From: Odiellus spinosus | Lineage: Eukaryota; Arthropoda; Arachnida; Opiliones; Phalangiidae | Assembly (NCBI GenBank): GCA_963920705.1 | Contig: OY987226.1 | Coordinates: 7,442,501 to 7,506,500, forward strand | Length of the DNA: 64,000 nucleotides | Direction of reading: 5' to 3' | Part shown: piece after piece, positions 4,533 through 64,000 of the stretch | Layout: the number at the start of each line of letters is the position of its first letter | Position numbering within the stretch: the stretch's first letter is position 1 | The notes under the pieces: model-generated | What the model was told of the DNA's origin: nothing | Seen by the model: only the letters and a program-made list of their open reading frames with translations | Databases searched by the model: none | Made by a program: the position numbers and the translations under genes

Positions 4533-5326
4533 AAAGGTAAATTGAAGTCTAAAAACAAGTGATTTTATATCGATTGATGATCGTTAATATAAAACGAATT
4601 CACTAGACAAGATTCACAAACAAATATTTAACTTGAAACCATTTTTTTCCATTTTACTGGGAAAGTAGGCTTAGCACGAAACAGAGTTTCAAATTTAGTA
4701 GATAAAGAGTCTTCAGCCAATCACGTGAGAAACGCGTGCTTTATTCTGACAAAAGGTTGCAAACAATGCCTATAAGACACCTTTGGTTTTACTCGATAGA
4801 TGGATATATTTTAAAGGCATGATATCAAACTCTCAATGCATCCTTGTTAAGCCTACTTTCCGAATAAATATTTCTAGCTTAATATTTGATTATAATGTTT
4901 TTTACTGGTATCAGAAGCCGATGAAACCCTCCTTTGAAGTCTATTACTAACGGGTCTTGTCTACCCCTCTCTGTATGGGTTATTCTCAAAAGGCGCGATT
5001 CGTACGCCTCCTAACGGTAGATGTTTTCGGAGCGGGAGTTCGTCCACCGAATATCTCTAGCAGCCTCGGAGTTCGTCAAAAAAAAACGTCGTCGTTTGTG
5101 GAGAGAGAGAATTTCCAATTTTCCGTAGACAGGGGGGATGAAGTAGGACCCCTTCTAACTCGTAAAATTGGGAATTTTACCCATACAGAGAGGAGCGCTA
5201 TATGGAACATTGGAGTAGTAGACTTCAAAGGAGGGTTTCATCGGCTTCTGCTGGTATATAACACTTTAGTTAACAATAAGGAATCGATAGAAAATTACTT
5301 GTTTAGGGCCTTTATTCTCCCTTTAA
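4533..5326. mobile_element. MITE family X, copy 1, interrupted by family A
   Basis: Degraded family X element. The left arm (AAAGGTAAATTG...AACAAGTGATTTTATATCGA) runs from 4533 and the right arm ends ATTCTCCCTTTAA at 5326. GTAGGCTTAGC and its inverted partner GTTAAGCCTAC mark the arm/core borders. Family A copy 1 plus one TSD copy (4912-5257) interrupts the right arm; removing it leaves about 450 bp. The core is of the type also seen at 38107. Confidence 0.7.
4912..5250. mobile_element. MITE family A, copy 1, 339 bp
   Basis: TIRs of about 36 bp begin CAGAAGCCGATGAAACCCTC. The perfect 7-bp TSD CTGGTAT lies at 4905-4911 and 5251-5257. A second inverted pair, CCTCTCTGTATGGGT and its complement, lies farther in, so the element can fold back extensively. 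It is inserted in the right arm of an older family X element. The long open frame crossing it on the plus strand is a by-product. Confidence 0.93.
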
Positions 5327-15423: not shown

Positions 15424-16090
15424 AAAAAGGACATCCAATTAAATTTTAATATCTAAAAGGACATCCATTTAAATTTTAATATCTAAAAGGACATCCAATT
15501 AAATTTTAATATCTAAAAGGACATCCAATTAAATTTTAATATCTAAAATTACAACCAACTAAATTTTAGTTCTTGGAAGGACATCCAATTAAATTTTAGC
15601 CTTTGAAAGGACATCCATTTAAATTTTAACCTTTGAAAGGACATCCAAATAAATTTTAACCTTTGAAAGGACATCCAAATAAATTTTAGCTTTTGGAAGG
15701 ACATTAAATTTTAGCCTTTGGAAGGACATTAAATTAAAATTTAACCTTTGGAAGGACAACCAATTAAATTTTAACCTTTGGAAGGACAACCAATTAAATT
15801 TTAGCCTTTGGAAGGACAACCAATTAAATTTTAGCCTTTGGAAGGACAACCAATTAAATTTTAGCCTTTGGAAGGACAACCAATTAAATTTTAGCCTTTG
15901 GAAGGACATTCAATTAAATTTTAGCCTTTGGAAGGACATTCAATTAAATTTTAGCCTTTGGAAGGACATTCAATTAAATTTTAGCCTTTGGAAGGACATG
16001 CAATTAACCTTTGAAGGGACAAACAATTAAATTAAGCTTTTGAATAGTCAGCAAATGATATTTTAGTCTTTGTAAGGACAACAAATCGAG
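15424..16090. repeat. Minisatellite, 30-bp unit, about 22 copies
   Basis: Tandem units of the type AAGGACATCCAATTAAATTT followed by a variable ten bases. The left third ends units with TAATATCT, the right part with TAGCCTTTGG. Several late units have ACAACC or ACATTC instead of ACATCC. Because 30 is divisible by three, one minus-strand frame stays open at 15619-15909 as a repeated ten-residue unit; I do not regard it as a gene. Confidence 0.95.
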
Positions 16091-22491: not shown

Positions 22492-22541
22492 CTAGATTAA
22501 ATCAAACGTACAGTAATATTGATAGATTATAAAAAGCTTAC

Positions 22542-25500
22542 CTTGGGTGAAATTGGTAACTCGCTGCTTGTTTTTTGAATTGAACATGATTCCGTGTTTC
22601 GGCTGCGTCGTGATGATGTAGAGTAGATTCGAATCGTTACTATCCCTATCTTTAACGCACAAAACTTTACTGTCGAACGCGAAACCCATTTGTCCGTTTA
22701 AAATTGTACTTAACGAAGAAAGTCCCTTATTCGCGACTAAATGAGGCGGTTTATTGTCCACGGCGTAAATTTCGATAGTGAGTTTTTCGGGGCGCGACGT
22801 TTGGTCGTTTAAATTAGGATGCACGAAAAATTGACCGTGTGTACCGTCCGTTACGGTAAACGCGAACTCGTCCCTAACACTCTCGCTACCATCGTGTTGG
22901 TAACTTATTTTGTTCTCGGTTAAATCTGACATCGTGAACGAATTTACCACACCTAGTTCAATGTTTATGATTTGTCCGTGTAAGGGTTGTTCAACGATTT
23001 TAATTTTGAGCGAATCTTCCGGGGTGTCCTTGTCTTCGACTTTTAACTCAAACGGGGTGATTAGTTTGCGACCACCTTCGCGAACTCTCATCGGGGAGAC
23101 GTAAAGAACTGGTTTTTTGTTATCAACGTCGCTGATTGAGATCCTGAAGGTTCTGTAAACTGAATTGTATCCGTCAGTTACCTCGAATTCGAAGCTATCC
23201 ATTTTTAGTTCGTCCTGACTGGTATGAACGTAGTAAATCTTATTTCCGGCTAAATCTAATTGGGTAAATGTAGTTATGAATACTAAAGGCGCGTCCGTGC
23301 TCTCTAAATGACCTTTAAGAGGAGGTCGCGTTATGGTGAATCTCAAATGTTCGTCGTTGCTATTGATATCGCTAGTACTGAGGATATCCGTTGTTAGGGT
23401 TATTTTACCGCCTTCTGGTAGTTCAACTCCCCGGTTGATGACGTGGGGGTACGAAATGTCGATGCCTTCTACTTGCACCCAGAAGTAACGATCAATTAGG
23501 GTGTTGGTACCGTCAGTGACGTCGAATTTGATCAAATCGCGAACACCTTCCGAACCTGTGTGAATGTATTTGATGTTTTCCGTATCAATGTCGTATTGGG
23601 TAAAGTTGAAACCCGTTGTTAAGTTGTACAATTCAGTTCCGCTTTCTTCTTCGATGTAGGCTAAGTACCCGTGACGCGGGGGTTGTCTAACTACGAAAGT
23701 TAGATTGCTATCAACCGAGTCGAAATCTTCGGCTTTTAAATCGTAGTTGGTGATGGTACGAACTTCCCCGGCTGTTACTTCGAGGCCGTTGTTGATGGTT
23801 AGTCTTGGGGTTTCGTCATCCATTGGTATAATCATTACTATCACCGTTTTTCTGGTTCGGTACAATCCGTCTGTTAATTCTAATTCAAAAGTGTCCTTGA
23901 TCGTTTCGCTGTCGTCGTGATGGTAAACCACGTTTGAACTGGTGGCCGCGATATCGTCTAAAGTAAAATCGCTTATTTCGAACGTTCCCGTGCTTAGTTG
24001 GGTGACAATCAAACCGTGTTTAGGTTTGCGAATGACAGTGAAACTTAGATTTTGCGAAGGAACGTCCAAGTCCACCGCGTTTAAGATTGGCAAGTCGATT
24101 TGTAAATCCATTCCCTCCATTACGATGAATTCGCGCAAGTGTATTTGCGGGTGCTCGTCGTTTTTGGGCTCAATTTCGATTTCCAAGTCAAATTTGGGTG
24201 AAAAATTAACCCCGTCCGAGCAACTGAAGGTTAGTCTATCTTCAACGGGTTCAACTCCGCTGTGGGATCCTTGGTAGTACGCGATATATCCGTTTTGTAC
24301 GTCCGATATGGTGAAAGCTGTTATCGGTAAACCAGCCCGTGATTTTTCCGAACCAGGAAGGGGCGAGATGTTTTCCAAGTAACCGTGATGCGGTTGCTCA
24401 TCAATGACGCACACGATTTCCGAATCGTCCGTATCTATATCGGCCGCGCTAATGTCGTGAGATGTGAGGAATACTTTACCAGCTTCTTCAACCTTGATTG
24501 GGTTTGATACCATTACAACCGGTGGTACGTTATCCTTGGGTATGATGGACACGGCGACCAGTATCTGATCTATTCTGGTACCTTCGACGACCCAGTTTTG
24601 CGACAGATCGGATACTGTAAGGTTGAAACTATCTTCGGCTACGTCTTTCCCAATTTCGTCCCCATTATGGACGTAATACACCTTACCATCTTCAATATCC
24701 TTTTGTTTAAATTGAGCTGCGGCGAAACGACCATCTACTTCAATGACACCGTGTTTCGGGTTGGAAGAGATAATAAATGCAATCATCAAATCATTCGTGT
24801 CTGGATCAGAGGCTCGTAAGAGTTTGGAGTTTATTTGAACTCGTCCCCCTTCTTCGGCGGTTAATTGAATACCGTAGGAACCAGGGTTTAAATGTAACTT
24901 GGGAGCTTCGTCGTCAACCAGACTAACGTGAATGTTAACTGGTATAGGCACGCGGTGAATCCCGTCCGACACTTCTAATTGGAGTAAGTCTTGATTACGT
25001 TCATCGCCTCCGTTTACGTAGGTAACGTCGCCGTTTTGAATATCGTTTCTTGTAAAAATGTCCCGCGACTCTAGTTTCCTACCTCTCAGTTCCAACGCAC
25101 CGTGTTTTGGCGGGTCCGCTACCGAAAATATGATAAAGTCATGAAGAGTGTCCGCGTCAGACGCGTCCAGAACTTCTGGGGTAATGTTAAACCTTCCATT
25201 TTCATATACGTGAAATCCAGTGTTTAATATGACGGGTGGTTTATTGTTAACAGGCTTTAATAAAATTCTAAACGTTTGATCGCGCAGGATATTATCGCTG
25301 CTATCTATTACTTCAAAATCGAATTGAATTATGCGTGGTACTATTCCCATTTCAACAGGCGGTGGACGGTAGGCGATTTTGTGATGGTTAATCTCGGCTT
25401 GAGTAAATTCGTCAACGACTCTGTCGATTCTGTCGGAGTAAACTAACGTTCCTGGGTTCATAGGGTTGTTCAGGTCAGTGTCGTAAGGTCTACGCGTAAC

Positions 25501-26757
25501 CCTGATAGTTAGAAATCGATCTTTTGTATCCAAATCCGTATAACGTATGTGTTTTTTCGTTAATTTTGTAACCTGAAATTCTTCAACAGATACTTCTAAT
25601 GGCGTTCCAAGAAATAATTTTGGTTGTATGTCGTCTTGGGATTCAATTTTGATCACCAATTCTTGCTCAGGAGATTCGTTGGGTGGTGTATGATCGTCCG
25701 AAACTTTAAACTTGAGTTTATTAATAACCGTTTGGGTGCTGTGAAGACCAACGAATCTGTAAAATAATTTTCCTTCATTCAAGTCACTTTGCGACCACGA
25801 TGTCACCACCCTTTCGTATACCCCCTCGGAGAGGGTCCAGTTGCCCGGATCTTCCGGTACGTCAGTTTGTTTGATTAAGACCTGACTGTCTAACGGTATC
25901 GGCGAGATAAGGGTAAATTTGATTGTTGAATCGTCACTATCGATATCAGTGGCGCTCAGGACGAATGAAGACAACTCCGCGTCCTCACCCTTCCTTACGT
26001 TCAATCCCATGTTTACGTTTAAAACTGGCGGTTCGTCGTCCGAAGGGTAAACCGATATGGGGAACAGAAACTCGATTCGGTGTTGACCATCGTCTAATCG
26101 AAATATGATATTATCGGTGTAAGTATCCGTACCGTCGTGCTGATATATTATAACCCCCACGTCCAAATCAGCCGGCGAGAAATGCTTAACTGGTACGCCT
26201 AACATCAATAGTTTTCCGTGTCTTAGTCCATCAACCACGGATAATGATACATCTTCTATATTATCCTCATCCGCGATCTGTAAATTCTTGGAGCTTTGCA
26301 ATTTCCTTGATTGTCCCTCGACTAACATTAATCCAGTGTTCCTGGTAGCCAACGGTGCTAGCGTGTTCATGGGCTTGACTATGATCATTAACGAAAACGG
26401 ATCAGAAGCTTTGCCGTCCGAATCGATCACTTCCATCTCAACTTGGAATACCCTTTGGGTTTTTGAATCTGAAGACGGTGGTATGAAGGCGATTTTTAAA
26501 TCATCGATGTCTTTCTGATAGAATGATGTTACGGGGACTGTAACGTCATCGGTACTGACGATTTGACCTTCACTATAACCTAGAGGTATGGTTATGTTGA
26601 ATATCAATCGGTCTTCCGGCGTTTCGGCATCTTCCGCTGCTAAGATACTCCGAGTAATAGCGGTCATAACGAATTGATTTACATCCATTAGTAATAAGGA
26701 GTTGAAACTAGGTTGGGGTTGAGAATTTTCTTGTCCCTCTTGGATAAGTACCATGAC
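22542..26757 (-). CDS. Frem: FREM-type matrix protein, coding exon 3 (twelve CSPG repeats, 3' end not in view)
   Basis: 4,216-nt exon, open throughout (1,405 codons plus one base). The acceptor TTTACGCAG ends at 26758; the donor AAG|GTAAGC has its GT at 22541-22540. It encodes twelve successive CSPG (NG2-type) repeats of about 110-125 residues. Each has a D-x-D-x-x-x-x-x-L-x-F core, a PKHG or PxxG turn, FTQ-x-DI-x-x-x-x-I-x-Y-x-H, and a final V-x-DG. Examples are PPKHGALE, QPHHGYLE and FTQYDIDTENIKYIH. Twelve is the usual FRAS1/FREM number. Repeat 12 is cut by the exon end just after NFTQ, so the next exon must start in phase 1 and finish it. Family members then carry Calx-beta domains and, in FREM1, a C-type lectin domain; none is visible to the left. 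About 1,657 residues are encoded in the window, against roughly 2,200-3,200 for complete family members. The giant repeat exon resembles vertebrate FREM2 (from memory), so FREM2-like is the better guess, but the paralog is unresolved. Confidence 0.93.
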
Positions 26758-27531
26758 CTGCGTAAAGAGGGATAAAAAAGGAGATATACTCGTAATTGTT
26801 TCAATTTTAAGAATAAAAATTCATCTTTCACGCTTTGGAAGATACGTCGGGGGTATTTACTTAAGGGTAATTATTTCTTTTCCCCATTTTTCTCTTTGCT
26901 TAGATAATTATTTTAGTAATACGAATCAATTAATAAAAGAAAATCTTAACTCCGCTGCCATAAGTAAGCCTAGGGTCTTGTTTCACACGTTGGCGACTGG
27001 CGGCCTCGCCGTAATTAACAGTATCGTAAAGATTATATAATCATCCCCTTGATTCATTACACGATTTTTATAAACAGCGGGGTCTTTAAAGGGGTGTAAC
27101 AAGTTGGGTAAGCTTCGACTTCGAATCCCTTGACCGAAAATAGAAATAGGTTTTTACCATGTTCTTCGAAAACTACTTTTGCAACTGAAACTATTTCTCT
27201 TGCTCGTGTGGAATAATTTTGAAATGCTACACTGATTTAGACCGTTTATACCTTAATTTATCAAATATTTATTTAATTTTTTTCTTATTAATTCTTAAAC
27301 ACAGACTTTCCTTCCGTTGTCAATCAACTTAACACCCCATAGAATCATATTTTAGAATAAAAACTTAAACTCTATATTCGTGAACGGAATTAAACCCCTG
27401 GTTTTAAATTAATTACAGGGTGTTGACGCGAAATCTTAGCCGGGGAGGTAATTATTTAATTGACGATAAGAGAGACGAAAGAAGGCCGAGGAACGTATCC
27501 AGAGAAAGTTATAAGGAAAGGTTTAACGTAC

Positions 27532-28141
27532 CTGAAAATATTCCTGTTTGATAAAATTTCCTTCTCGGTCAGTCAGTTGGACGATCATGGGTATATAATC
27601 CTTATTAGGCGAATCGTGAAAGGTGTGACGGTATCTGATATCCGATCTTAAAAACTGTCCGCATTCTTTCACGATACCCGGTTCGGTGTCGTTGACCACG
27701 TGACCGTAAGTAGGCGGTCCATCCATCTTCGGGACAATTGTCACTTCACACGTTTGAGTCGAAGGATCAAAGTTAAACTGTAGGATACTTTCATCCAAAG
27801 GTCCGCTAATCCCCATTAATCGGTTGACCAGTATCGGGGCGTTTTTGTTGACGATTTCTAATTGTTCGAATGACACTTGGACGTGAACGGAGAGTGGTAA
27901 GATGACCGTATCCTCTTCGGTATCATACCGGACAAGTAGCTTAATTTTATCTTGTTGGGGAGTCCGAGCACCGTAGTGGGAGTAACGAACTTCTTCTGGT
28001 CCGAATTGACACGGGAAATGAACCGGGGTTAATTGACCAGGTCGTTGGGTCAAAGGGTCATTTTGGATGACTCGAACCGTGCAACGGTGGCCTGGTCGAA
28101 CTTCGATATTTAATTCGTTTACCGGGTCTAGGAATACCGAC
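27532..28141 (-). CDS. Frem: FREM-type matrix protein, coding exon 2 (amino-terminal domain)
   Basis: 610-nt internal exon. The acceptor TTATTATAG ends at 28142 and the donor GTACGT starts at 27531. It completes the Arg codon from exon 1 and ends on a whole codon. It encodes the conserved amino-terminal region of FREM proteins, residues about 50-252. Visible hallmarks are RSVFLDP, PGHRCTVRV, the FPCQFGPEEVRYSHYGAR block, and a RYDTEEDTVILPL segment; these are among the best conserved parts of FREM1/2/3. Four cysteines are spaced as in secreted proteins. In vertebrates FRAS1/FREM proteins assemble at epithelial basement membranes and stabilise epithelium-mesenchyme adhesion; a similar extracellular role here is inference. 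Intron 2 is 774 bp (26758-27531). Confidence 0.9.
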
Positions 28142-29160
28142 CTATAATAAAAAGTTTGGGATTTATATTTTGAATGTGAATGTGTATGCTAAGAATTATA
28201 ATATAAATGCGTTAAAAATTGAATTTAAACCAATTTTATCGATTGGGAAAAGTATCAATTTTGTTAATAATTATTATTTAAAATATATTTTAAAGAGACT
28301 AAGATTAAAATTTTGAACCGATTTCTAAAATATCCGTAATTTGGAAATACTTTTTAGGCGTTTTTGGAGCCATTTTCCTAGGATATACAAATCCCATCAT
28401 AAATTCTGTAGTTGCTTATTTCTCGAGGATTGTAATTAGCATTACCCTGGAAAAATTACTGCCTAAATTAAGGATTAATTACACTAAAATAAATCAGTGT
28501 TTAAAAGAGTTTAAACATTATCTAAAAGTATTTAAAGTGATGCTGCCCCCATTGTTATTTCATAAGTAAATGAGTTATGCATTTATTTTTTTTAACATCC
28601 TTAACGCTTTATAATCCGAAAATTCTACACAAATTTCTTATGGATTTCATAAGAAATCGGTCACGACATCATATCTTAAGTGTAATTTACATATTTTTCA
28701 CTAATAATTTAAAGTGCTAAGGCCGTCAGCAATTTTTTTTCGAAGGCCGATGGATTATATTTTAAGATTTCACGTCTTTGATCGAGTTAACGAGTTTTTA
28801 CGTAATTTCAAAATTAAAATGCCAAATGTTTCTATAAAAAATAAAGCTATATAAAATTTGCCACTGAGAATGTGCGAGAATCAACTGTAGAATCTATAAT
28901 ATCCACACTACCATAGTGATGACATATTATTGCGGCTAATTTGTTTTACAATAAATTTCGAAGATTTTATAAAATATTTATTTTTACTGTGTCATTTATT
29001 TATGATATAATAAGTTAAGAAACCTTTTTTTAACAATTTTTCCATAAAATTATAAATTAAATTATATTTGGAGCTCATGAAAAAAAAACCTTGACAGCCT
29101 CACTTTCATAATTTCACTGTTATTATATCAATTAGTTGTTATGAAAAAAAAAGCGCTTAC

Positions 29161-35412: not shown

Positions 35413-35470
35413 AATAACATTTGTATATAGAGCTCGGAATTCGTATAATTTTTATTAATTGGATAGAATC

Positions 35471-35889
35471 AGAGGTATATAATAACCCCCTTTGGGGGGA
35501 AGTATGAAAGGTAGGCAAAATCGACGAACAACAAGTGCCCGGCGTAAATCGCGGCGGATCGACACACCGCTTTACTCCCAAAAAATAGTTACACCATTTT
35601 GAACCTCACTAAATTTTCCCTACGAGCACTTCCGGAACTCGCGAGCTGAAGTCAACCTTCGACTCCATTTTAACAGACAGCCTGACTCCTGAGACAGGAA
35701 GTTCTAAACACAAATCGAGCCGTCTTGTTTATACAAAGACCATTAACTAGAGTAGCGACATTGAGAAGTCCAGCGCGAGCTAGTGGCCTAGATAGTCAGC
35801 AGCGGGCTCTTGTTGTTCGTGATTTTTAGCATTGGTATATAGTATAGGGGTTTTCATACTTCCCCCGAAGGGGGTTATTATATACCTCT
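35471..35889. mobile_element. MITE family U, 419 bp, with 9-bp target duplication
   Basis: TIRs of 38-39 bp begin AGAGGTATATAATAACCCCC and continue to GGGGGAAGTATGAAA, with one mismatch and one indel. A perfect 9-bp TSD GATAGAATC lies at 35462-35470 and 35890-35898. An inner inverted pair, CGAACAACAAG / CTTGTTGTTCG, extends the fold-back. A 9-bp TSD is typical of Mutator-like elements, so a MULE-type MITE is inferred. The interior is unusually rich in G+C and has no recognisable transposase. Confidence 0.9.
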
Positions 35890-36412
35890 GATAGAATCTA
35901 CTAAAGTTTGATTAAAAATAGACTATTTTCATTCAAAGTAAAAAACAATCCATATCCGTTTTAATCCAAAAATTACCTTCTTAGAATATTCTCCGCGTTA
36001 TACGTTCGGATAAAAAAATCTAAATTTATTTTCCTGAAAAATAATTAATAAAAAATAATTTAAAATCTTAGTTTCGTTGTTTTATTTATATTCTTCAAAT
36101 TAAAAGATAATTTGAAATATTTTTCTGAATCAGGAAGCAGCTATCTCGTTTATTAATTGAATAGCATCATTTCGGTTAGTAATTGTAAGGTTAAGTCTTT
36201 GGAATTTTATGTTACTACTACTGTATACAATACTCCTTGCATGTAGAGAACCGTTTTCTTTAGTCTTTGTAAAATGCAACCTCGCCAATAGGAAAGCTAA
36301 GTTTAGTCGTAACTTAAGTATGGATCTCAATAATCAAATGTAACTTGTTAGAAAACTTTATTATATTATTAAACAAAAGTATTTATTTTGCTACTATAAC
36401 CTATAAGTATAA

Positions 36413-36722
36413 CCAAGAATCCATTCAGGTTCCATAAGAATATGGGAGCATAGCTTTAGCCTCTGGTACCATCCTCCCAAACTTTGTAACAAAAGTGCGT
36501 CCGCAATTTTCGCAACATTTGAACGCTTAGATCTTTTTTCGGTCGGCTCCATTTTTATTAACTAAAATATTATGTCAAGGTCGTTAGTGGCGCGGGTTAA
36601 TAATATAATGTCAGGAGCGATTTACTTGAAAAATCGATTCGAACTTTTGCTACAAAGTTTGGGAGGATGGTTATTGAATCGCGGCCCTCCCATATTCTTA
36701 TGGAACCTGAATGGATTCTTGG
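36413..36722. mobile_element. MITE family V, 310 bp, with 5-bp target duplication
   Basis: Long TIRs of about 85 bp (imperfect internally) begin CCAAGAATCCATTCAGGTTC and continue through ATAAGAATATGGGAG. Nearer the centre, ATCCTCCCAAACTTTGTA faces TACAAAGTTTGGGAGGAT. Perfect 5-bp TSD TATAA at 36408-36412 and 36723-36727. No coding content. The superfamily is not settled. Confidence 0.88.
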
Positions 36723-38320: not shown

Positions 38321-41300
38321 TTTGGCTCATTGTCCTAGAATGTTGTTTAACGAAGAATCTGTAAGTAGAAAGTACGACATTAACCTTTCAAAAGGATTAC
38401 ATTATAAATCTACATCATTTGTGCCTATAACAAAATTTAAATTCGAGCTTCCCGTACTTAAAGTTTTTAAGCTCGTGGCCCCTTGTGTATGAAAATGAAA
38501 TGTTTACACTCGCATGGGTGTTAATGATTAGGGCGAACAGCAACCAATTTCTTATCGACCAACTATAGAGAATAATATTAGGGTGTGTCGAATTCGTGCA
38601 TGAACTTCGCGTAGATAACTTAAGATGTAAAGATCCGTAAGCCAATTAGTTCTGACAAAACTCTAACGCATCTATTATTCCATTTGGATCCTATAGATGT
38701 TGCTCGTTTCCATCACAAGCTTGGCGCCTTACTCTATCGAACGAAATAAAACTATCAAACGGTGTCTGAGCTCGAGCTGAGTCAAATTACAGGGTGTATA
38801 TAAAGAACGGAAGATAGTGACGTTTTCAGAGCCTACGCCTACTACATTTTATAACCGCTTATAATGGTTTTATTAAAGAGAATAGAGTATTCAACCCTCC
38901 TCCACTCCATATCCCTTCGTCTTATTCTAATAAATACAAAGCGCCAGTTCAATTTGGGCCTCGCAACAAAAAGGGAATCATTTTTCATTCTAAAACAACT
39001 TATTATATACGTTTGCGCGGTAGGAGAAACAAAAATTTATTTCGGTTGTCATCGTCATCAAAGAGAGAGCGATCGAGAGAAATAAAAAGCCGTTATCTTA
39101 TTTAAGTTCTTATTGCATCCGTGATTGTCTGTGTATGTAGTTTTTTTATTGACCTTAACATACTTTTTTTTTTTTTTGAAAGGACGTTACCAATTTATCG
39201 AATTTTTCAATAACTACGTGGATTTGGTTTTATTTTATGTAATTAATAATTTAAAGGGATTAACAATTAATATTTAATGGATTAAGAGCGTTAAGATACG
39301 AATAAATACGTTTTTCGTTAATTTATAGATAATTTACCAGTTAATTCTCAATATTTAGAATGGTAACAAATAATTTCGAGTGAAGGAGCGTTTTCAAAAC
39401 ATTTTCCATTATTTTTTATAGGTATATGATATGGCTTAATTCGCAACTTTGTTAACGGTAAATTAACGATAACCGTTTGATTTTTATGATTTTAACGCTC
39501 ATAATAAACTACAAATAAAATGTAGCCCAAGGGTTATAAACTTCAAAAGTATTTGTTTTTATATTTCAATTTTTTCACTACTAACACATAGAATACTACG
39601 CGATTAAGCTGGTTTTCAACTGGTTTTCTATAAGAACGGGAAATAGGCTAAAACCTCTAAATCAATCAACTTCGATCATGGATTTATTAATAGTGGCCTA
39701 AGATTGACAGCAGACAGAAAAAATTGAAAATTGTTCAATCCTAACTTAACCTAACGGCCGCAATTGGTAAAGTGAATTTAGGGCCTATGTCTGTTAGGTA
39801 AAATTGAATGCATACGGATCACAATCTACAATCAAACGCTAGCTTCATCGTAAATTGGTGAAATTTCACGAACAAATTAACTAATAAAGGTCTTTATTAA
39901 ATTTTTTTGAAGCAACGTTATTTAGTAAAAACTAACAGTTTCTATGGAAGATCCCGCCTATTTTATTTTTATTTTTTTATCTATCCCGAATTTTAAGAAA
40001 CTTAACTGTAAAAGTGTTTCGTACACCCAAAACTCTCACGAAAAGTGTACTTGGCCATCTTAAATTGCAATCACTTTGTATTCTGTCGTCGAAGCACACT
40101 TATGAGCAACGCGCCCTCATCTTCTCGTTCTATAACATTAAGTAAACATTTTTTATTCATCTCGATGTGCTTTATATAGCGGGAAGGAATAAGGAAATGG
40201 GGCACCATATACTTCGATTGGCTCCTAGCCGTTTGTAATATTTTTTAACCATTTTGTATTATTCCGCCATGGTTTTCGCTAGTTTGCGTTCTATTAATGA
40301 ACTAAACTATATAGTCTCGAGTGTTGAATATTGTAAAAGAGTATAGCGTCTAGCAATTCCTCACGTATAGACGAAGAAGGGTGTATCCCAATCCCGAGAG
40401 TCTCAGCGGGTGAATCGATTACGATTTTTTTTTTACTCTATCGGCACTTTCTTACTCTGGGCCAACGATAAGAGGATCTATACGTCGATAATCAATGTTA
40501 CCGTGAATTGATAGTAGGGGTAGAAAAGGGTCTGACCGCATTCGATAGCGCTGTGAAAATAATTTGCTTTCAATTGATTCAGGTACATTCGATCGATTTG
40601 CAAATGATCGAAATGAGAAAAAATAAATTATAAATGATGGACAAAATATCTTTCAAACTGAACTCAATGGTTTGACCGCGGTTACACCAAAAACAATGTC
40701 CTCAATGACAAATAATTGCCATCGAGTCAACATTAGACCCACATCACTAACCGTAACATATTTTATTGTAAATACCTGGAGCTTTTCTTGGATACAAAAT
40801 CGAACTTATAACCTAGCTTAATTAATTTGTATTCAATGACAATTAAGTTAAGTAATTGCTCCGGATACTACTTCCAAAGCTGCGAACCTCTCCTAAATGT
40901 TTATTTTTTAAAACTGATAAATGGAAACACTTTTTGATGAAATGGAACCATTATTCGATCACTTGAGATTCGACCAAATGGCACATAATGGAAGCGAAGA
41001 TAACTAGGTCCCACTTCATATCAAAAGTGATTTCTTTGAATAGGCTTTCTCGGCGAAGCGGACTATATGGATTCGTTCCGCGGCGGTAGGTTTTTTTCTA
41101 TAGGAATGCGTTACTTATAAGCTAGGTCTAGAAAATACGGTAGGAGGCCCCCAACAGAAACCAAACAGTAGAACACTTTAGAGAAGTACCACCCACGGAA
41201 TGCTTATGGTTCGATTAAAATACTCCGAATACTCAAAAGGCGTCGGACAAATTTCGCAGCCTTGGAACTACCGAAACCCTTTACACTAAGGAAGGAGGGA

Positions 41301-41539
41301 TGAAGGTGTGTCCTGAGCCTTTCACGTATCGAACTCTCAACTACTCTGGGTGCTTGCAAGCCTGCGAATATCTGGAAATACTATATATAACGTTCAATTT
41401 TACCGCGTTCTTCAAAGATATGAGAATTTTATTGGGTCTCGCATGTGGATATTAAATACTAAGACAAAAAACTGCAGTGGTGTAGCTATAGACACGCCAG
41501 GGAATTCAAATATTGAGCCAAAGGCTCAGGAAAAAATTC

Positions 41540-41990
41540 AATGATTTTGAAAAATTTAATACTTTTAGGATAATGTAAGTAAATTTAAAATCGGAGCTAA
41601 CGTAATATTTTTTCGTGACTTTAAGGAAATATCAATTAAGTTGGATATTCACATAAGTTTATAGAAAATAGTCAGTGAATTTGAAATTTAAGGTTTAGGC
41701 AAAAACCAATAAATGTGAAATAAAATTAGGTTATGGAAAAAACTCAGCGAATAGTTCAGGGGTAAACTTGGGAATCATAAACCCAGATTTTGCAAACCGC
41801 AGTTAAATTTAGCAGGATTTGACAAACTGATTACGAAGGATTCCGCGGACGCAAAAATATTCTGACAAAATTTAATAGATTTGAAATAAAATCGACTAAT
41901 ATTGCAAAAGTGAAAGCCAGTGGATTTGAATATTGCTCTTAGATTGAGAGAATAAGTTAGTCTGTGAAAAAGAAACCCAACTTTATCTTA
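41540..41990. repeat. Very degenerate repeat tract
   Basis: Recurring GTGAATTTGAAAT-, -GATTTGAAATAAAAT- and GCAAAAACC-like pieces at irregular spacing, similar in style to the array at 795-1240. The boundaries and period are uncertain. Confidence 0.35.
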
Positions 41991-42833
41991 AAAAAACGTT
42001 AAACTAGTAGTAAGGTTATAAATTATGCCATATAAAAGAACAAAAAACTTTTCTTCTTAGATGTAGTTAAAATCCATGATTTCATCCTACACATAACTGT
42101 CAAATTCCTTTTATTATCTAGCAACATTTTGTATAACATTCCTTTTCTCGTAACTTATCCGATGAGCCACAAATTTAAGGGGCGGCAGATTTTAACTTTA
42201 AACGCGCTAAGCGATCAATCACCGAAAACATTGATGAATAATTCAAAAGGGGCTGAGGTTAGCTTGTCAAATCAAGGCGGGTGTAAAACTTAACACCTTT
42301 CGTACCTAGGTGTCTTTTAAAGAGGGTCTCCCTCGCCCATTTGCAAGGACCTTAAAGACTTCATCGGAGAAATTCTCTTTCGCGGATGAGTGCAGGGGTG
42401 GAATAGTTTAACCCTTGGCAAATACCACTTCGAGAGACAAGTAAAGTTTCGCTTCTTAAATTTGACTTAAAATTGCGCAGTTCATGCCTCACGCTGCTAT
42501 TTTTTCAAAGGACAAGTGTACCGTAATGTACGTCCATCTAAAGATACAGTCAACAATTTATTTCGTTAATAAATTCGCCTTATTTTTGGCATTAAATTAA
42601 ACTTTGGCGCTCCTCCTTGGAAACGGAGTTTAGCCAATGGGAGAGGTTCCTCCTGACTAGATGTTTGAAGGTTATCATTTAAACTAGGCTAACTATCTCT
42701 TTTCGAAATTAAATTCGATCTTTTACTACTCATGTAACTTTATTTACAAAGACTTTCAACTTTGGAGTCAAATTATTTAACTTTTTCCGTGAGATCTGCC
42801 CTTTAACTGTCAATATTTGACTCCTATAGTCAC

Positions 42834-43029
42834 TTAAGCCGTGTTCAGACTAGAAACTTTGAAAGGATTTTGACACGTTTTCGAAAAGTCAAATTATAAC
42901 ATTTCGCTGTCACTATAGAGTAAATATTTGATACAGAAATGCAATTATTATCTTGAATAGTCGATTTTATCCTTCAAAGAGGTTTGAAAACGCTTTTTAA
43001 AGTACCAAATGTGAACGTAGCTTTAGTTA
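42834..43029. mobile_element. MITE family Z-like, copy 3 (196 bp)
   Basis: TTAAGCCGTGTTCAGACTAG at the left faces AATGTGAACGTAGCTTTAGT at the right. The subterminal TTTGAAA and TTTTCGAAAAG motifs are shared with the other copies. Confidence 0.65.
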
Positions 43030-44176
43030 CCGGGACATTGTATATTTTGAAGTATTTAGTCATCATTAATAAATAAATATGACATATTTTCTCAGGGGGG
43101 CCACTGCATTTTGTGACCACCGACGGCGAAGAGTTGATTCCGCGGCTTTTTTTCCCTCAAGTAGCGCTATGGTTGTAGGTGGCATTAACTAAACACTAAT
43201 TGTATAGTTGCAAAGCGTGGGGAAACCACACTTCAGAGAAATTTAATATTAGGGGAAACTCGTCTGATAGTAATTATTTTCAATCGACTAGATGAAACCA
43301 AGGTATTTCTAGGAATACTACCTTTAATTTTAAACTTATCATTAATCACGCTTTTTCCCTTATTTGACGTAGTCAAGTGGAAAAAGATGCATATATTTTT
43401 GTCAGTTTTGTTCCGAAGTTAATTAAAAATACGTCAAAATAAAGGTGTAACAATTTTAATAAAGGTTTTAATTAGTTTGGAATTTAAGTTGAAAATATAT
43501 AATCCATATACATGCGGGAAAAAAATTGACAGCATCACTTCAAATTGGGTATAGTGTACCAATGATTTTGGGAAGAGTAAACAAGTTTCGATCCCTAACG
43601 CGCGACAACTCAATCTATGATGCTCTAGACTGTGAGAAATAAGTGGAAATAACCACTTTTCCCTGCATTATTACCTAAAGATCAGTAACTTCCAGCTTCA
43701 TTTGGGGTGCAGTTATACAGTTTTTGAACTGAAGAAATTCACAAATAGAATTCCACATCGCGGGGACTGGCATTGTCCGATTTCGTTTTATACCACTTAT
43801 TTTTCACCCGATTTCCTTACAGATTTTTCTGTCACAAACGCTTAATATACGCTTTATTGAATTCAATTATATTGTTAAAATCGATTTGGATTGCAGCTCG
43901 TATCAACCTTGAATTCTGGTTACATCTTTAGTTAAAATCAATTGAAGTTACCCGAACTTTAAGGGATAGTAACACGTAGACTAAGTCTTTTTATATACGT
44001 ATTAATTATCATTAAAATATAATAATTATAGTAATCTTCATTTACGGAGAATTTAAAATCTCATCAACCAGCAAATGAGGGAGACTCCAGTTTGAAACGT
44101 TTTACTGTCGAAATGAAGTAAAGTGATTGTCTGGAGACTGGTTATCAACGAGATTTCAAACTTTACATGTAAAGCA

Positions 44177-44329
44177 TACCTTTTAAGACGAGGCGTAACG
44201 AGTCGGTTTCATCAGATTTTACCGATGTTTAATCACTATTAACCGATGTTTATTGAACTAAGAAGGCTATGTAAACCTCGGTTAAATTTGATTAAACCAC
44301 GGCTAATTACGCCTCGTCTGAAGTGGGTA
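44177..44329. mobile_element. MITE family Y, copy 3 (153 bp)
   Basis: TACCTTTTAAGACGAGGCGT at the left; TACGCCTCGTCTGAAGTGGG then TA at the right. Inverted GACGAGGCGTAA ends are exact. It lies next to a family X fragment. Confidence 0.8.
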
Positions 44330-44336
44330 TTACAGA

Positions 44337-44462
44337 GTGAGTTTAAATCTCAATAAATTGATTTGCAATTCAATATTTGTTTGTTTAATTTTTTTACCAG
44401 TCAATTTTAGTGGGATAAGAAATCGTAAACAAATCACTACTTTTAAGGTTTCATTCTCTAAG
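44337..44462. mobile_element. MITE family X, copy 9 (degraded right-arm fragment)
   Basis: TTCAATATTTGTTTGTTTAA, TTTTTTTACCAG, GATAAGAAATCG and GGTTTCATTCTC follow the order of a family X right arm. Heavily diverged, with no left arm. It begins immediately after family Y copy 3. Confidence 0.5.
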
Positions 44463-45369
44463 TTCAAGTCCCTTATAGACCTCAATCAATTTTGGCTACT
44501 TATACTGGAGTTAATTTACTTATGGTGAAGTATACAGTTTAATATTTAAAAAACATAAATCGTGACTGGTATTTCGCCAAAATACACGCAAATGAATGAA
44601 TATTATTAAGTAGTTTCATTAAAGTGAGACTTTTACTTATTTTTCAGGAACACGAAATGGAGGTGCGTAGCATTTTTGGATATAGTTGAAAAACTATTCT
44701 AGAAAAATGGCACAGCAGTTAAAGTACATATTGTATAATCGTCATTTTCAAAATAAAGTTTTTAAAATAAAAATTCCCCGGAATTGTACGTCATCACTAA
44801 GGCACGTGATAAGGTTGCTTTCAGGCAGTCTTTTTGTCGTAAATACACAATCTAGGAAGCTCTACCTATTGTATTAAACTTACATCTAATTACGTTCCAG
44901 AAATAAACTACCTCCATATTTTTGACATTTCCATTTTAAAATTTTTTAAGAACACGTCAACCCAGAGGTATACAATTTTGAATATGGCGTTCGATATAGT
45001 TTGATAAAACTAAAAAATTTAATCTAAAAATGGTGACGGCCTTACTTTAATTAGTAAAATCTAATTAAGGAATACGGAAATGTAAATGATGTGGCGTTGG
45101 GTACACGCGACTCTTAATTCCCCTACTTTCAAAGCGCCCTATGAGCTCTTTTAGAAGATTATCCATTTGAAATACTGGAAAAACAATCCGCCTTACATAA
45201 TTTTTCCCAGGCCTGTAACAGGTATACAAAAAGAAAAGGCAAAAAACAGAATTCAAGGTCTATTAACGATTTTAGTTGCGCAATTTTCCCATTTATGATC
45301 TAATACAATAGCTAACTCCTGGCTCTTTTACTGCTCCGTATGAAATATGAAGATAGGTGTAAATTTTAT

Positions 45370-45708
45370 CAGAAGCCGATGAAACCCTCCTTTGAAGTCT
45401 ATTACTCCCGGGTCTTGTCTACCCCTCTCTGTATGGGTTAGTTTCAAAAAGCGCGATTCGTACGCCTCCTAACGGTAGATATTTTCGGAGCGGGAGTTCG
45501 TCGAGCGAATATCTCTAGCAGCCTTGGAGTTCGTCAAAAAAAAACGTCGTCGTTTGTGGAAAGAGAGAATTTCCAATTTTCCGTAGACAGGGGGTATGAA
45601 GTAGGACCCCTCCGATCTCGTAAAATTGGGAATTTTACCCATACAGAGAGGAGCGCTATATGGAACATTAGAGTAGTAGACTTCAAAGGAGGGTTTCATC
45701 GGCTTCTG
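45370..45708. mobile_element. MITE family A, copy 2, 339 bp
   Basis: Same length and nearly the same sequence as the copy at 4912-5250, in the same orientation, with a few substitutions. Perfect 7-bp TSD ATTTTAT at 45363-45369 and 45709-45715. It lies about 350 bp upstream of the Gr start. The minus-strand open frame inside it is not a gene. Confidence 0.93.
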
Positions 45709-46056
45709 ATTTTATGAATAATAACACTTAAGCAAATTAAAACAGTCTACATTATAGCCAGTGAAAGATTAATGTCGTGTTCTTTCACTTTTATTAGTTG
45801 TATTTCCACTTCGGCATGCCATAGTAAGGTTAAACTCTACACGTGTAATCAAATTATCTAGATTAGAAATACCAAGGAACATTAGAGGCGTATTTTTCGT
45901 GGTAAAAAGGTGCGCAAGATTCATGACTGAAATAATTGTTTATTTAGAGAACTATGTAAGAAAAACTCGCGTGTTTAAACTGTTCTCGCGAAATAACATT
46001 CTTAGTTTGTGTACCACTAGTTAAAAGTGAAGAATTCTTCAATTAAGCTTCAAAAG

Positions 46057-47622
46057 ATGTTTTCTAGAAATGTTGTCGCTTTTACTCCTCCAAAATCGAG
46101 GAATTTGAATTCAACACCGTTATGCGTATCGAGAAATTTCATGTTTAACTTTTTCTACAAGTTTCTTTATAAAATCGGATTATTTCGTGTTAAGAAGCGG
46201 TTCAGCCTCGTTAAATGGATAACATTCTTCCAGAAATAGATGAACCGAAATTATCAACGAGAGCTTAGATTGGGAAATGCATTTTATTTGGAGTGAATGG
46301 GGAGGGTAAGCACTGGGGGAATGGGCTTCCTCGGCCTCAATGAAATACCGAGGAGGATCTTGGGAAACTGATCGCCCCACGAAGCGACGGCTGCAAACCA
46401 AGCCAGGTGGCGCATTCAACGTTTCTCGGCTAGGCGAAATTCCGCGGGGGAGGGGGCTACAACTGTCGTCTAAGAGAGGGGAAACGGAGAACTTGCCTGT
46501 GGCGTTAGAGGAATAGCTCGTTGATAATTTCGGTTCATCTATTTCTGATTCTTCGTAGTAAACATTTACAGCTTGTTTATAAGCGGCGTGGCGTTGGAAC
46601 ATTGTTATATGAACTGGAACGAAAAGACAAACTTATTTCTACCCGTTGCCGACGCGATACGAATGTTATCGGCAGCGTATATTCTTAATTTGTGCTATTT
46701 CGGAAAAATGGCTTTACCCAGTTGCTACAAAGTTTTGACTATCTGTTCCACGAGAATCACCATGCCTAAGTTGTCACCCATAATTACAGTTTCTGTATTA
46801 TTGATATTTATCTTTAACTTAATCGTAATAATAATGAAAGGCGTAATGCTAAGCGATCCAGTTGGAACGAGAGAATACGTCAAGCGTTTCGTCTTCAACA
46901 GCGAATATTTGAAGACTCTTTCAGTCCCAGCTTACGTAATAATCGTGTTAAAAAACTTATCGTGGTACTTTGTTCTTTTCTTCGGCTTCGCATTTCAATC
47001 TTTTTTCGCTCTGACAATGGAAACGTTTCGAATTCAAGTATGCGCGCTATCAGAGCAAGTTCATATCTCAAAGAATATAAGTCACCTATGTCGTCTACAC
47101 GATCAATTATTCGCTGCAGTTTACGCCTTGAATTCTGAATTTACACACGTTATTACTTTATGGTTAATTGAGTGGATAGCCATATTTTGTCTTTACGTAC
47201 CCATTGTGGTACAAAGAATAGCGGATCCTAACTCTGTAATGTTCAACTTAATATTTTTCTTACTCAACGTAATATCTCCGCTTTTTAGTATAGGCCTAGT
47301 TTTCTCAACACTGGCTCTGGTTAGTGATTGTAACGGTTCTTTGGTCGCCGCTTCTCACCGTCGCATTTTACTAAGAATTGATAAATTGTCAAATCAAGAT
47401 CAAGCGTTAGAAAACTATTTGATGAACAAATTGAATAGCGGTTTAATACATTTCACTTTCTTTAAATGTGAAATTATCGATAAATCTTTCAATTTAAGCG
47501 TAGTTACCGCGGTCGTGTCGTATCTATGTTTTATTTTGTCGATGATTCAAGCTGAGAGTAAAACGGCAGAAACAATCTCTCCAAACTGTAATTGTTCATT
47601 TAAAAATATCACAGCGTTTTAG
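46057..47622 (+). pseudogene. Gr: Gustatory receptor (7tm_7) gene split by a MITE in membrane helix 1
   Basis: Insect gustatory receptor, a ligand-gated cation channel family of chemosensory neurons. The 5' part is open from ATG 46057 to 46230 (58 codons, ending KWITFF). The 3' part is open in the same frame from 46555 (VVNIYSLF) to the TAG at 47620-47622 (355 codons). Between them sits a 317-bp MITE plus one TSD copy, 324 bp in all and divisible by three. The two parts therefore belong to one frame of 413 residues, a normal Gr length, with seven hydrophobic helices; the insertion lies inside helix 1. Family signs are the HLCRLHDQL...ALN block ahead of helix 5 and a TM7 motif SYLCFILSMIQ that resembles the Gr TY-x5-QF signature. 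An in-frame TAG at 46237-46239, inside the MITE, ends translation after 60 codons. A residual start at 46609 would give 337 residues without helix 1. No other stop or frameshift was seen, so the lesion is young. The ligand and Gr subfamily are unknown. Confidence 0.85.
46231..46547. mobile_element. MITE family B, 317 bp, inserted in the Gr coding sequence
   Basis: Perfect 31-bp TIRs at 46231-46261 and 46517-46547, beginning CAGAAATAGATGAACCGAAA. They are flanked by a perfect 7-bp TSD, ATTCTTC, at 46224-46230 and 46548-46554. The interior is richer in G+C than the flanks and encodes no transposase that I recognise. The CAGAA terminus and 7-bp TSD match family A, so both probably used the same transposase. 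The 140-codon open frame on the minus strand here is a by-product of this insert. Identical TIRs and TSD indicate a recent event. Confidence 0.93.
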
Positions 47623-50910: not shown

Positions 50911-51067
50911 CCGAGGGGGCAGACACTCGTAAACTCAGGTGTACAAATTTTTTGAACTCTTTACACTATCAAAGCTGAACTCAAAGTTCATAAGAGTTCC
51001 CAACTCAATGCGCTGTCAAAGCTGAACTCAGTGAACTCAGCGAATTCAAGAGTGTCTGACCCCTCGG
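50911..51067. mobile_element. Short TIR element, 157 bp, with 6-bp target duplication
   Basis: 18-bp TIRs CCGAGGGGGCAGACACTC and GAGTGTCTGACCCCTCGG (one mismatch). Perfect 6-bp TSD ATTTTG at 50905-50910 and 51068-51073. The interior repeats GCTGAACTCA and GAACTC motifs. Only copy in the window. Confidence 0.85.
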
Positions 51068-53951: not shown

Positions 53952-54343
53952 CTTTCGAATTTCTAAATGTACTAGTCCCTTTCGAATTTCTAAATGTACT
54001 AGTCCCTTTCGAATTTCTAAATGTACTAGTCCCTTTCGAATTTCTAAATGTACTAGTCCCTTTCGAATTTCTAAATGTACTAGTCCCTTTCGAATTTCTA
54101 AATGTACTCGTCCCTTTCGAATTTCTAAATGTACTCGTCCCTTTCGAATTTCTAAATGTACTCGTCCCTTTCGAATTTCTAAATGTACTCGTCCCTTTCG
54201 AATTTCTAAATGTACTAGTCCCTTTCGAATTTCTAAATGTACTAGTCCCTTTCGAATTTCTAAATGTACTAGTCCCTTTCGAATTTCTACAAGGTTCCTT
54301 TCTAAATTTCTACAAGGTTCCTTTCTAAACTACTATTTATTTT
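53952..54343. repeat. nwk: Minisatellite, 27-bp unit, in nwk intron 1
   Basis: Twelve full units (CTTTCGAATTTCTAAATGTA + CTAGTCC) start every 27 bp from 53952, then a partial unit and two diverged units ending ACAAGGTTC. Units differ at one position only: five with ACTAGT, four with ACTCGT, three with ACTAGT. It ends about 100 bp before the exon 2 acceptor. Confidence 0.96.
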
Positions 54344-63047: not shown

Positions 63048-63860
63048 AAACTTTTACTACATTGTTGGGGCGAGAGTTTTTGGGTGAAAAAAATCTAGGA
63101 TTAAGTTTGAATTGGCCGGTGGGTGTAAAACTGAAAAAAAGGCTTAACTAAAGGCGATGTATATTTATTAAATTTATGTTTGACGTCTATTTCGAGTGAA
63201 GAAACTTTATAAAATTTGACAGTTTTTTTATATCTTTTTTTACCCCAAAAAGTTTGACAAATTTTTTATTTAAAATTACATTTAAAATTATATTTAAGTT
63301 TTAACGTATATCCGATATTGTAAACCAGAAATGAATCACTTGAAGAAGAATGCTAGACTTTCAGTTTAGTGATAATTCAAGCCTTTTTTCATTTTCCCAA
63401 ATCTATAGCTTGGGGGAATTCTATCAGAGCGTAGTTTTGTGCAACTTATAGAGAAACTTTTACTACATTGTTGGGGCGAGAGTTTTTGGGTGAAAAAAAT
63501 CTAGGATTAAGTTTGAATTGGCCGGAGGGTGTAAAACTGAAAAAAAAAGGCTTAACTAAAGGCGATGTATATTTATTAAATTTATGTTTGACGTCTATTT
63601 CGAGTGAAGAAACTTTATAAAATTGACAGTTTTTTTATATCTTTTTTTACCCCAAAAAGTTTGACAAATTTTTTATTTAAAATTACATTTAAAATTATAT
63701 TTAAGTTTTAACGTATATCCGATATTGTAAACCAGAAATGAATCACTTGAAGAAGAATGCTAGACTTTCAGTTTAGTGATAATTCAAGCCTTTTTTCATT
63801 TTCCCAAATCTATAGCTTGGGGGAATTCTATCAGAGCGTAGTTTTGTGCAACTTATAGAG
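63048..63860. repeat. Head-to-tail duplication of a 406-bp segment
   Basis: 63048-63453 is repeated at 63454-63860. The copies differ by only a few changes: GGTGGG/GGAGGG, a longer A run in copy 2, and AAATTTGAC/AAATTGAC. The junction shares AAAC. No open frame of note. Either a very recent tandem duplication or an assembly artefact from two haplotypes. Confidence 0.95.
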
Positions 63861-64000
63861 AAAAGCTCGAAGTTCTTGCCCCTATCTTGTTTCAATCCGA
63901 AAATTTTATTAAAGGGCTAAAGACTGCATTATATATTTATGTTTCAATTTATTACATTGATTTAGTTATATATATCATTTACGATATAATATTTGTTTAA

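Follow-up and report, generated by a model that had tools for sequence, protein, structure and literature searches.

Membership of the gustatory receptor (Gr) family rests mainly on topology, with sequence identity falling to as little as 8% between members (PMC9998090). The gustatory-receptor-like (Grl) proteins presented in the same account have the length and topology of Grs, while the sequence features that define the family are almost completely missing from them. Intronless Gr genes, Gr pseudogenes and turnover of the family have all been described (PMC3732137, PMC2680840). For Heliconius, the published Gr models span 258-477 aa, and the description includes intronless Grs, Gr pseudogenes with internal stops, and gains and losses of receptors between species (PMC3732137). 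One study has examined transposable elements in the vicinity of Gr clusters of Spodoptera (PMC9339325). Among mobile elements of the P superfamily, the Drosophila P element is reported to have 31-bp ends and to make 8-bp duplications (PMC7776569), the P elements and P-MITEs of Anopheles gambiae have ends of 27-31 bp and duplications of 8 bp (PMC1562414), and Galileo makes duplications that are mostly 7 bp and sometimes 8 bp long (PMC4168063).

Here we describe a locus in which a MITE has probably inserted into an intronless 413-codon gene encoding a receptor-type protein with seven helices, leaving a null allele or a young pseudogene. It lies in a 64-kb stretch of AT-rich DNA, which its contents suggest to be arthropod; the whole of this stretch was analysed and is referred to below as the window. 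As in the Gr pseudogenes of Heliconius, at least as these are presented in PMC3732137, a single-exon receptor-like gene appears to have been inactivated by stops; unlike in those cases, the cause here is an intact mobile element accompanied by its duplication. No MITE-split gustatory receptor is named in the titles and opening lines of abstracts among the literature matches listed, which is not a proof of absence.

A 317-bp element interrupts an otherwise open frame

Two open segments on the plus strand share one reading frame and are separated by 324 bp. The first, at 46057-46230, comprises an ATG and 57 further codons (58 codons), the last of which encode the beginning of hydrophobic helix 1. 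The second, at 46555-47622, comprises 355 codons followed by a TAG, and encodes the remainder of helix 1 and helices 2-7; its product is called the C part below. The insert between them consists of a 317-bp element with terminal inverted repeats (TIRs), at 46231-46547, and the second copy of a 7-bp flank, ATTCTTC. The element has a GC content of 0.50, carries no strand assignment and reads CAGAAATAG...CTATTTCTG. Its left TIR (46231-46261, plus strand) and right TIR (46517-46547, minus strand) are both 31 bp long and perfect, the arms being 100% complementary across the 31 nt, and the two copies of ATTCTTC that form the target-site duplication (TSD) occupy 46224-46230 and 46548-46554 on the plus strand. 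The element thus has the TIRs, the TSD, the short length and the lack of coding capacity by which non-autonomous MITEs are recognized. A 150-aa ORF that crosses it on the minus strand had no Pfam match at E 0.01. Only one copy of the family is present in the window, where the other matches were the element's own arms and short chance words, and its TIR had no matches in viral contigs or in prokaryotic genome contigs.

When the two segments were fused at a single ATTCTTC, a frame of 413 codons (413 aa) was obtained, with no further stop or frameshift anywhere along it. It encodes seven hydrophobic segments, called as 19-residue windows with a Kyte-Doolittle mean above 1.3. Helix 1 corresponds to residues 54-72 of the joined frame, and the insertion site lies after residue 58, hence within that helix. 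Continued into the element, the frame gives Gln-Lys-stop, the TAG at 46237-46239 being the third codon of the element, and seven in-frame stops are found across the inserted 324 bp. Since 324 is divisible by three, the lesion consists of these seven stops, with no frameshift. On the right side the frame is open only from 46549, immediately preceded by a TGA at 46546-46548, as read from the letters. The gene reads as a single exon, with one open frame through to the stop. The original prediction had set out most of this anatomy, namely the segment coordinates, the 317-bp element and its 7-bp TSD copy adding up to 324 bp, the seven-helix frame of 413 residues, the TAG three codons into the element, the split inside helix 1, the perfect TIRs and TSD, and the otherwise undamaged frame; the coordinates proved exact to the base, and every other part of the description was reproduced.

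The interrupted gene is likely to encode a chemoreceptor-type protein

The length of 413 aa, the seven segments and the basic N-terminus of the joined frame are consistent with the length and topology of Grs, and to that extent argue against a protein from outside the family. The first 53 residues contain 11 K/R and no D/E. The loops assigned to the inside carry 25 K/R and 10 D/E, compared to 9 K/R and 8 D/E in those assigned to the outside, and hydropathy and charge, the only basis here, favour a topology with the N-terminus inside. Insect gustatory and odorant receptors share this layout. In helix 7, the motif SYLCFILSM retains the Y and the five hydrophobic residues of the Gr motif TYhhhhhQF, with T replaced by S, Q by S and F by M. 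It is also at helix 7 that the residues agree best with those of solved Grs, though not clearly above chance.

It is possible that the same insertion struck another seven-helix protein with the N-terminus inside, such as an odorant receptor (Or) or a Grl, and although we do not favour this reading we take it seriously. The loss of the Q and F from the helix-7 motif speaks for it, and so do the searches for sequence similarity. Neither part of the frame matched any Pfam family at E 1, 7tm_7 included, and the C part matched none even at E 10. Tests against Gr sequences gave results close to chance. With a helix-7 profile built from five solved Gr helix-7 segments, the last 120 residues scored 2.2 bits; of 2000 shuffles of these residues, HMMER reported 1430, and 34 did as well. 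The whole C part scored 0.2 bits, a value that 118 of its 2000 shuffles attained (1253 reported), and another ORF of the window, at 0.8 bits, scored above it. With a profile of Gr helices 5-7, 268 of 2000 block shuffles scored at least as high (1994 reported). Global alignment to Gr43a gave z values of 0.96 (BLOSUM45) and 0.49 (BLOSUM62), and alignment to 8vc1 gave 0.96 and -1.13 with the same two matrices. The Grl proteins of Drosophila, as described in PMC9998090, provide a precedent for a protein with this length, the seven-helix plan and little of the Gr signature; no structural match was obtained here.

Searched against PDB sequences, the C part matched only two saposin chains, with E about 1, which is chance. 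A single-sequence AlphaFold2 model of the C part (pLDDT 42.4) was too poor to be used, and was discarded together with its Foldseek search, in which the best E was 7. No relatives of the C part were confirmed in viral contigs, and no credible paralogue of the receptor was found in the 64-kb window, the best other E being 1.1 with the joined frame and 0.94 with the C part. We conclude that a receptor of the Gr, Or or Grl type is likely, and that a strict gustatory receptor, as originally predicted, is plausible from its topology: the label is based on that topology, the loop plan and the degenerate helix-7 motif, Pfam does not recover it, and the alignments are at best marginal compared to shuffles.

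The element is unlikely to be removed by splicing

The receptor-type gene would be intact if the element lay in an intron. In that case the true first exon would be located upstream, the segment 46057-46230 would be open by chance, and the acceptor TTCTTCGTAG at 46558, or TTTACAG at 46571, would connect that upstream exon with the long one. According to the description in PMC2680840, most insect Gr genes contain an intron near the 3' end, so that introns are common in the family. We ranked splice sites with hand-set matrices based on general metazoan frequencies, whose values order the sites and are not probabilities. The acceptors at 46558 and 46571 ranked highest to the right of the element; among the AGs of the window, the former falls at the 94th percentile and the latter at the 87th. 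On the donor side, 16 GT sites were listed between 46000 and 46236; none exceeded the 85th percentile of window GTs, and all those inside the first segment were at or below the 54th. Combining donors at 46060-46236 with acceptors at 46547-46720 yielded 15 frame-preserving introns; in none of them did the donor exceed the 54th percentile, and each would cost at least 16 residues. A strong donor, GTAAGC at 46306, is located past the first stop and is therefore unable to rescue the frame. It is thus unlikely that the element is spliced out of the transcript.

Further upstream, four first exons consisting of an ATG and a donor at or above the 95th percentile could be joined in frame. The best of them, 44246-44336 joined to 46558, would provide a basic N-terminus of 30 residues and a fair helix 1 with a hydropathy of 1.40, compared to 1.87 in the contiguous frame. 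Such candidates are, however, expected at chance level. We generated 100 Markov versions of the region 41000-46056, from which the candidate starting at 40988 is excluded and in which three of the four remain; 16 of them held at least three candidates, 30 reached a hydropathy of 1.40, and 2 reached 1.87.

If the first exon lies upstream, chance must also have left 58 codons open in exactly the right frame. As a background, 174-bp stretches were placed on either strand of sampled non-genic parts of the window; 880 of the 34,292 placements (2.6%) were stop-free, a proportion inflated because the sample takes in two open tandem arrays, near 15.4-16.0 kb and 53.9-54.3 kb. The strongly basic composition and the continuation into helix 1 would have to be explained by chance as well: among the 880 stop-free placements, the net positive charge of the first segment was reached by 36, at least 11 K/R with no D/E were found in 14, and an equally good helix 1 was formed with the C part by 102. 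Thirteen of them started with ATG. Codon usage, by contrast, does not argue for the first segment and leaves room for the intron. The segment scored below the mean of stop-free noncoding stretches, with 227 of 323 scoring equal or higher, and was outscored by one reverse frame; the score had been trained on FREM-like exons and the C part, so that most of the training set came from a very different protein. Taken together, these statistics make it likely that 46057-46230 is part of the gene, and an intron around the element unlikely. The original assignment of this segment to the receptor frame is thus likely on statistical grounds, without support from codon usage.

Four other elements in the window have the same kind of ends and duplication

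The whole window was scanned for paired inverted ends of 12 bp, matching exactly, with identical flanks of 5-11 bp. The scan returned nine rows, four of which were shifted versions, and these represent five distinct elements of four families. Ten first-order Markov sequences gave 0, 0, 0, 0, 0, 0, 1, 0, 0 and 0 rows in the same scan. A stricter version with flanks of exactly 7 bp gave 7 rows in the window, 5 of them with 20/20 matching ends, and 1, 0, 0, 0, 0, 0, 1 and 0 rows in eight Markov sequences.

Two of the elements, at 4912-5250 (TSD CTGGTAT) and 45370-45708 (TSD ATTTTAT, no strand assigned), are 339-bp copies of one family, designated CAGAAGCCG after the letters with which it starts, and are identical at 324 of 339 sites (95.6%). 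The latter copy sits 348 bp upstream of the ATG of the receptor-like gene. The elements at 35470-35890 (421 bp, TSD ATAGAAT, TIRs with two mismatches) and 36414-36721 (308 bp, TSD GTATAAC) are each present as a single copy in the window, with 523 bp between them. All five elements have CA...TG ends; their inverted repeats measure about 30-35 bp, the elements are 308-421 bp long, and their GC content is 0.40-0.50 compared to roughly 0.33 in the background. The only TSD length that fits all five is 7 bp. It was the sole length reported for 46231-46547 and 4912-5250; the TSDs of 36414-36721 and 45370-45708 can alternatively be read as 5 bp, and that of 35470-35890 as 5 or 9 bp. A 157-bp stretch at 50911-51067, with imperfect inverted ends (18/20) and identical flanks of 6 or 8 bp, may be an older element or chance.

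Because four families share one TSD length and one kind of end, their sequences point to a single transposase type for all five elements. Judged from the TSD and the ends, this would most likely be a transposase of the P superfamily, for which TSDs of 7-8 bp are expected and to which the 7 bp found here conform. Elements of the hAT type make 8-bp duplications, and a hAT-type origin fits less well. Neither a transposase nor an autonomous element was found in the 64-kb window, and the TIR of the CAGAAGCCG family had no matches in viral contigs.

In the accounts of P-superfamily elements cited above, TIRs near 30 bp and perfect TSDs recur, and the window elements resemble them in both. With 7 bp, their TSD is that of Galileo, whereas canonical P and the Anopheles P-MITEs have 8 bp (PMC4168063, PMC7776569, PMC1562414). 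Galileo itself is described as having long TIRs, unlike the window elements, and the Anopheles P-MITEs are described as AT-rich, in contrast to the GC content given above. The likeness to P-type elements is one of TIR and TSD structure.

Several other features were recorded in the window. The minus strand at 22492-28188 contains large exons of a FREM/FRAS1-like extracellular-matrix gene, with Pfam matches to Frem_N (E 2.8e-73) and to Cadherin_3 repeats (12 stretches, E 4e-208). Tandem arrays are found at 15427-16007 (30-bp unit, 19.5 copies, 91% match) and at 53952-54289 (27-bp unit, 12.5 copies, 99% match). Near the window end, at 63048-63863, a 407-bp unit is present as a tandem duplicate with 99% match, which could be recent or an assembly artefact. 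Rfam and tRNA scans of the whole window gave no matches.

The insertion is probably fairly recent

The insertion had been called young on account of its perfect TIRs and TSD and of the undamaged frame. With no difference at 31 TIR pairs and 7 TSD pairs, a divergence of up to 7.6% (95% bound) is allowed, and perfect ends by themselves therefore say little about youth. The intact frame is more informative. Substitutions that create a stop make up 177 of the 3717 possible in the 413-codon frame (4.8%), and the undamaged state of this frame bounds the neutral divergence since loss at about 1.0-2.5%, where 2.5-1.0% corresponds to an assumed 0.05-0.2 indels per substitution. The claim of youth thus stands in the form of this bound, and the insertion is probably fairly recent. 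At typical rates, the bound is compatible with polymorphism in a large population, and just as well with an insertion that is fixed and dates back some millions of years. We would suggest only tentatively, and with some doubt, that the insertion still segregates as a presence/absence allele in a chemoreceptor gene, generated by a currently active group of elements with 7-bp TSDs that is represented by four families in 64 kb. That the element inserted into a gene already dead and decaying is quite improbable: selection does not act on insertions into pseudogenes, and the degenerate helix-7 motif would fit such a history, but the 413 codons show no other stop or frameshift, and all the neutral time since loss would have to fit within about 1.0-2.5%.

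A model for the probable loss of the gene

In the explanation that we consider probable, a non-autonomous cut-and-paste MITE was moved by a transposase, most likely one of the P superfamily, whose source lies elsewhere in the genome. The MITE would have landed directly behind codon 58 of a gene that has 413 codons and no introns and that encodes a seven-helix membrane protein with its N-terminus inside, probably a divergent insect/arthropod channel of the gustatory-receptor type. The target would have been cut with a 7-bp stagger, and its repair would have left ATTCTTC on each side. The resulting 324-bp insert preserves the frame and adds seven stops, the first as the third codon of the element. 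A transcript of the interrupted gene would be expected to yield only a 60-residue peptide, or a six-helix fragment from the next in-frame ATG at 46609, which is the first ATG in the C part and from which the product is without helix 1. The interrupted copy would thus represent a null allele or a young pseudogene.

This is a new case of a familiar event, in which a chemoreceptor-like gene is disrupted by a MITE, and as such an instance of ordinary gene loss. Alone, the locus is one more disrupted receptor-like gene. Short mobile-element insertions of this kind are a plain route to smaller chemoreceptor repertoires, and in an undecayed case with a readable empty site the allele frequency and any effect on taste or host choice would be directly measurable. 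If the allele is indeed segregating, one species would carry natural knock-outs of a taste-type receptor.
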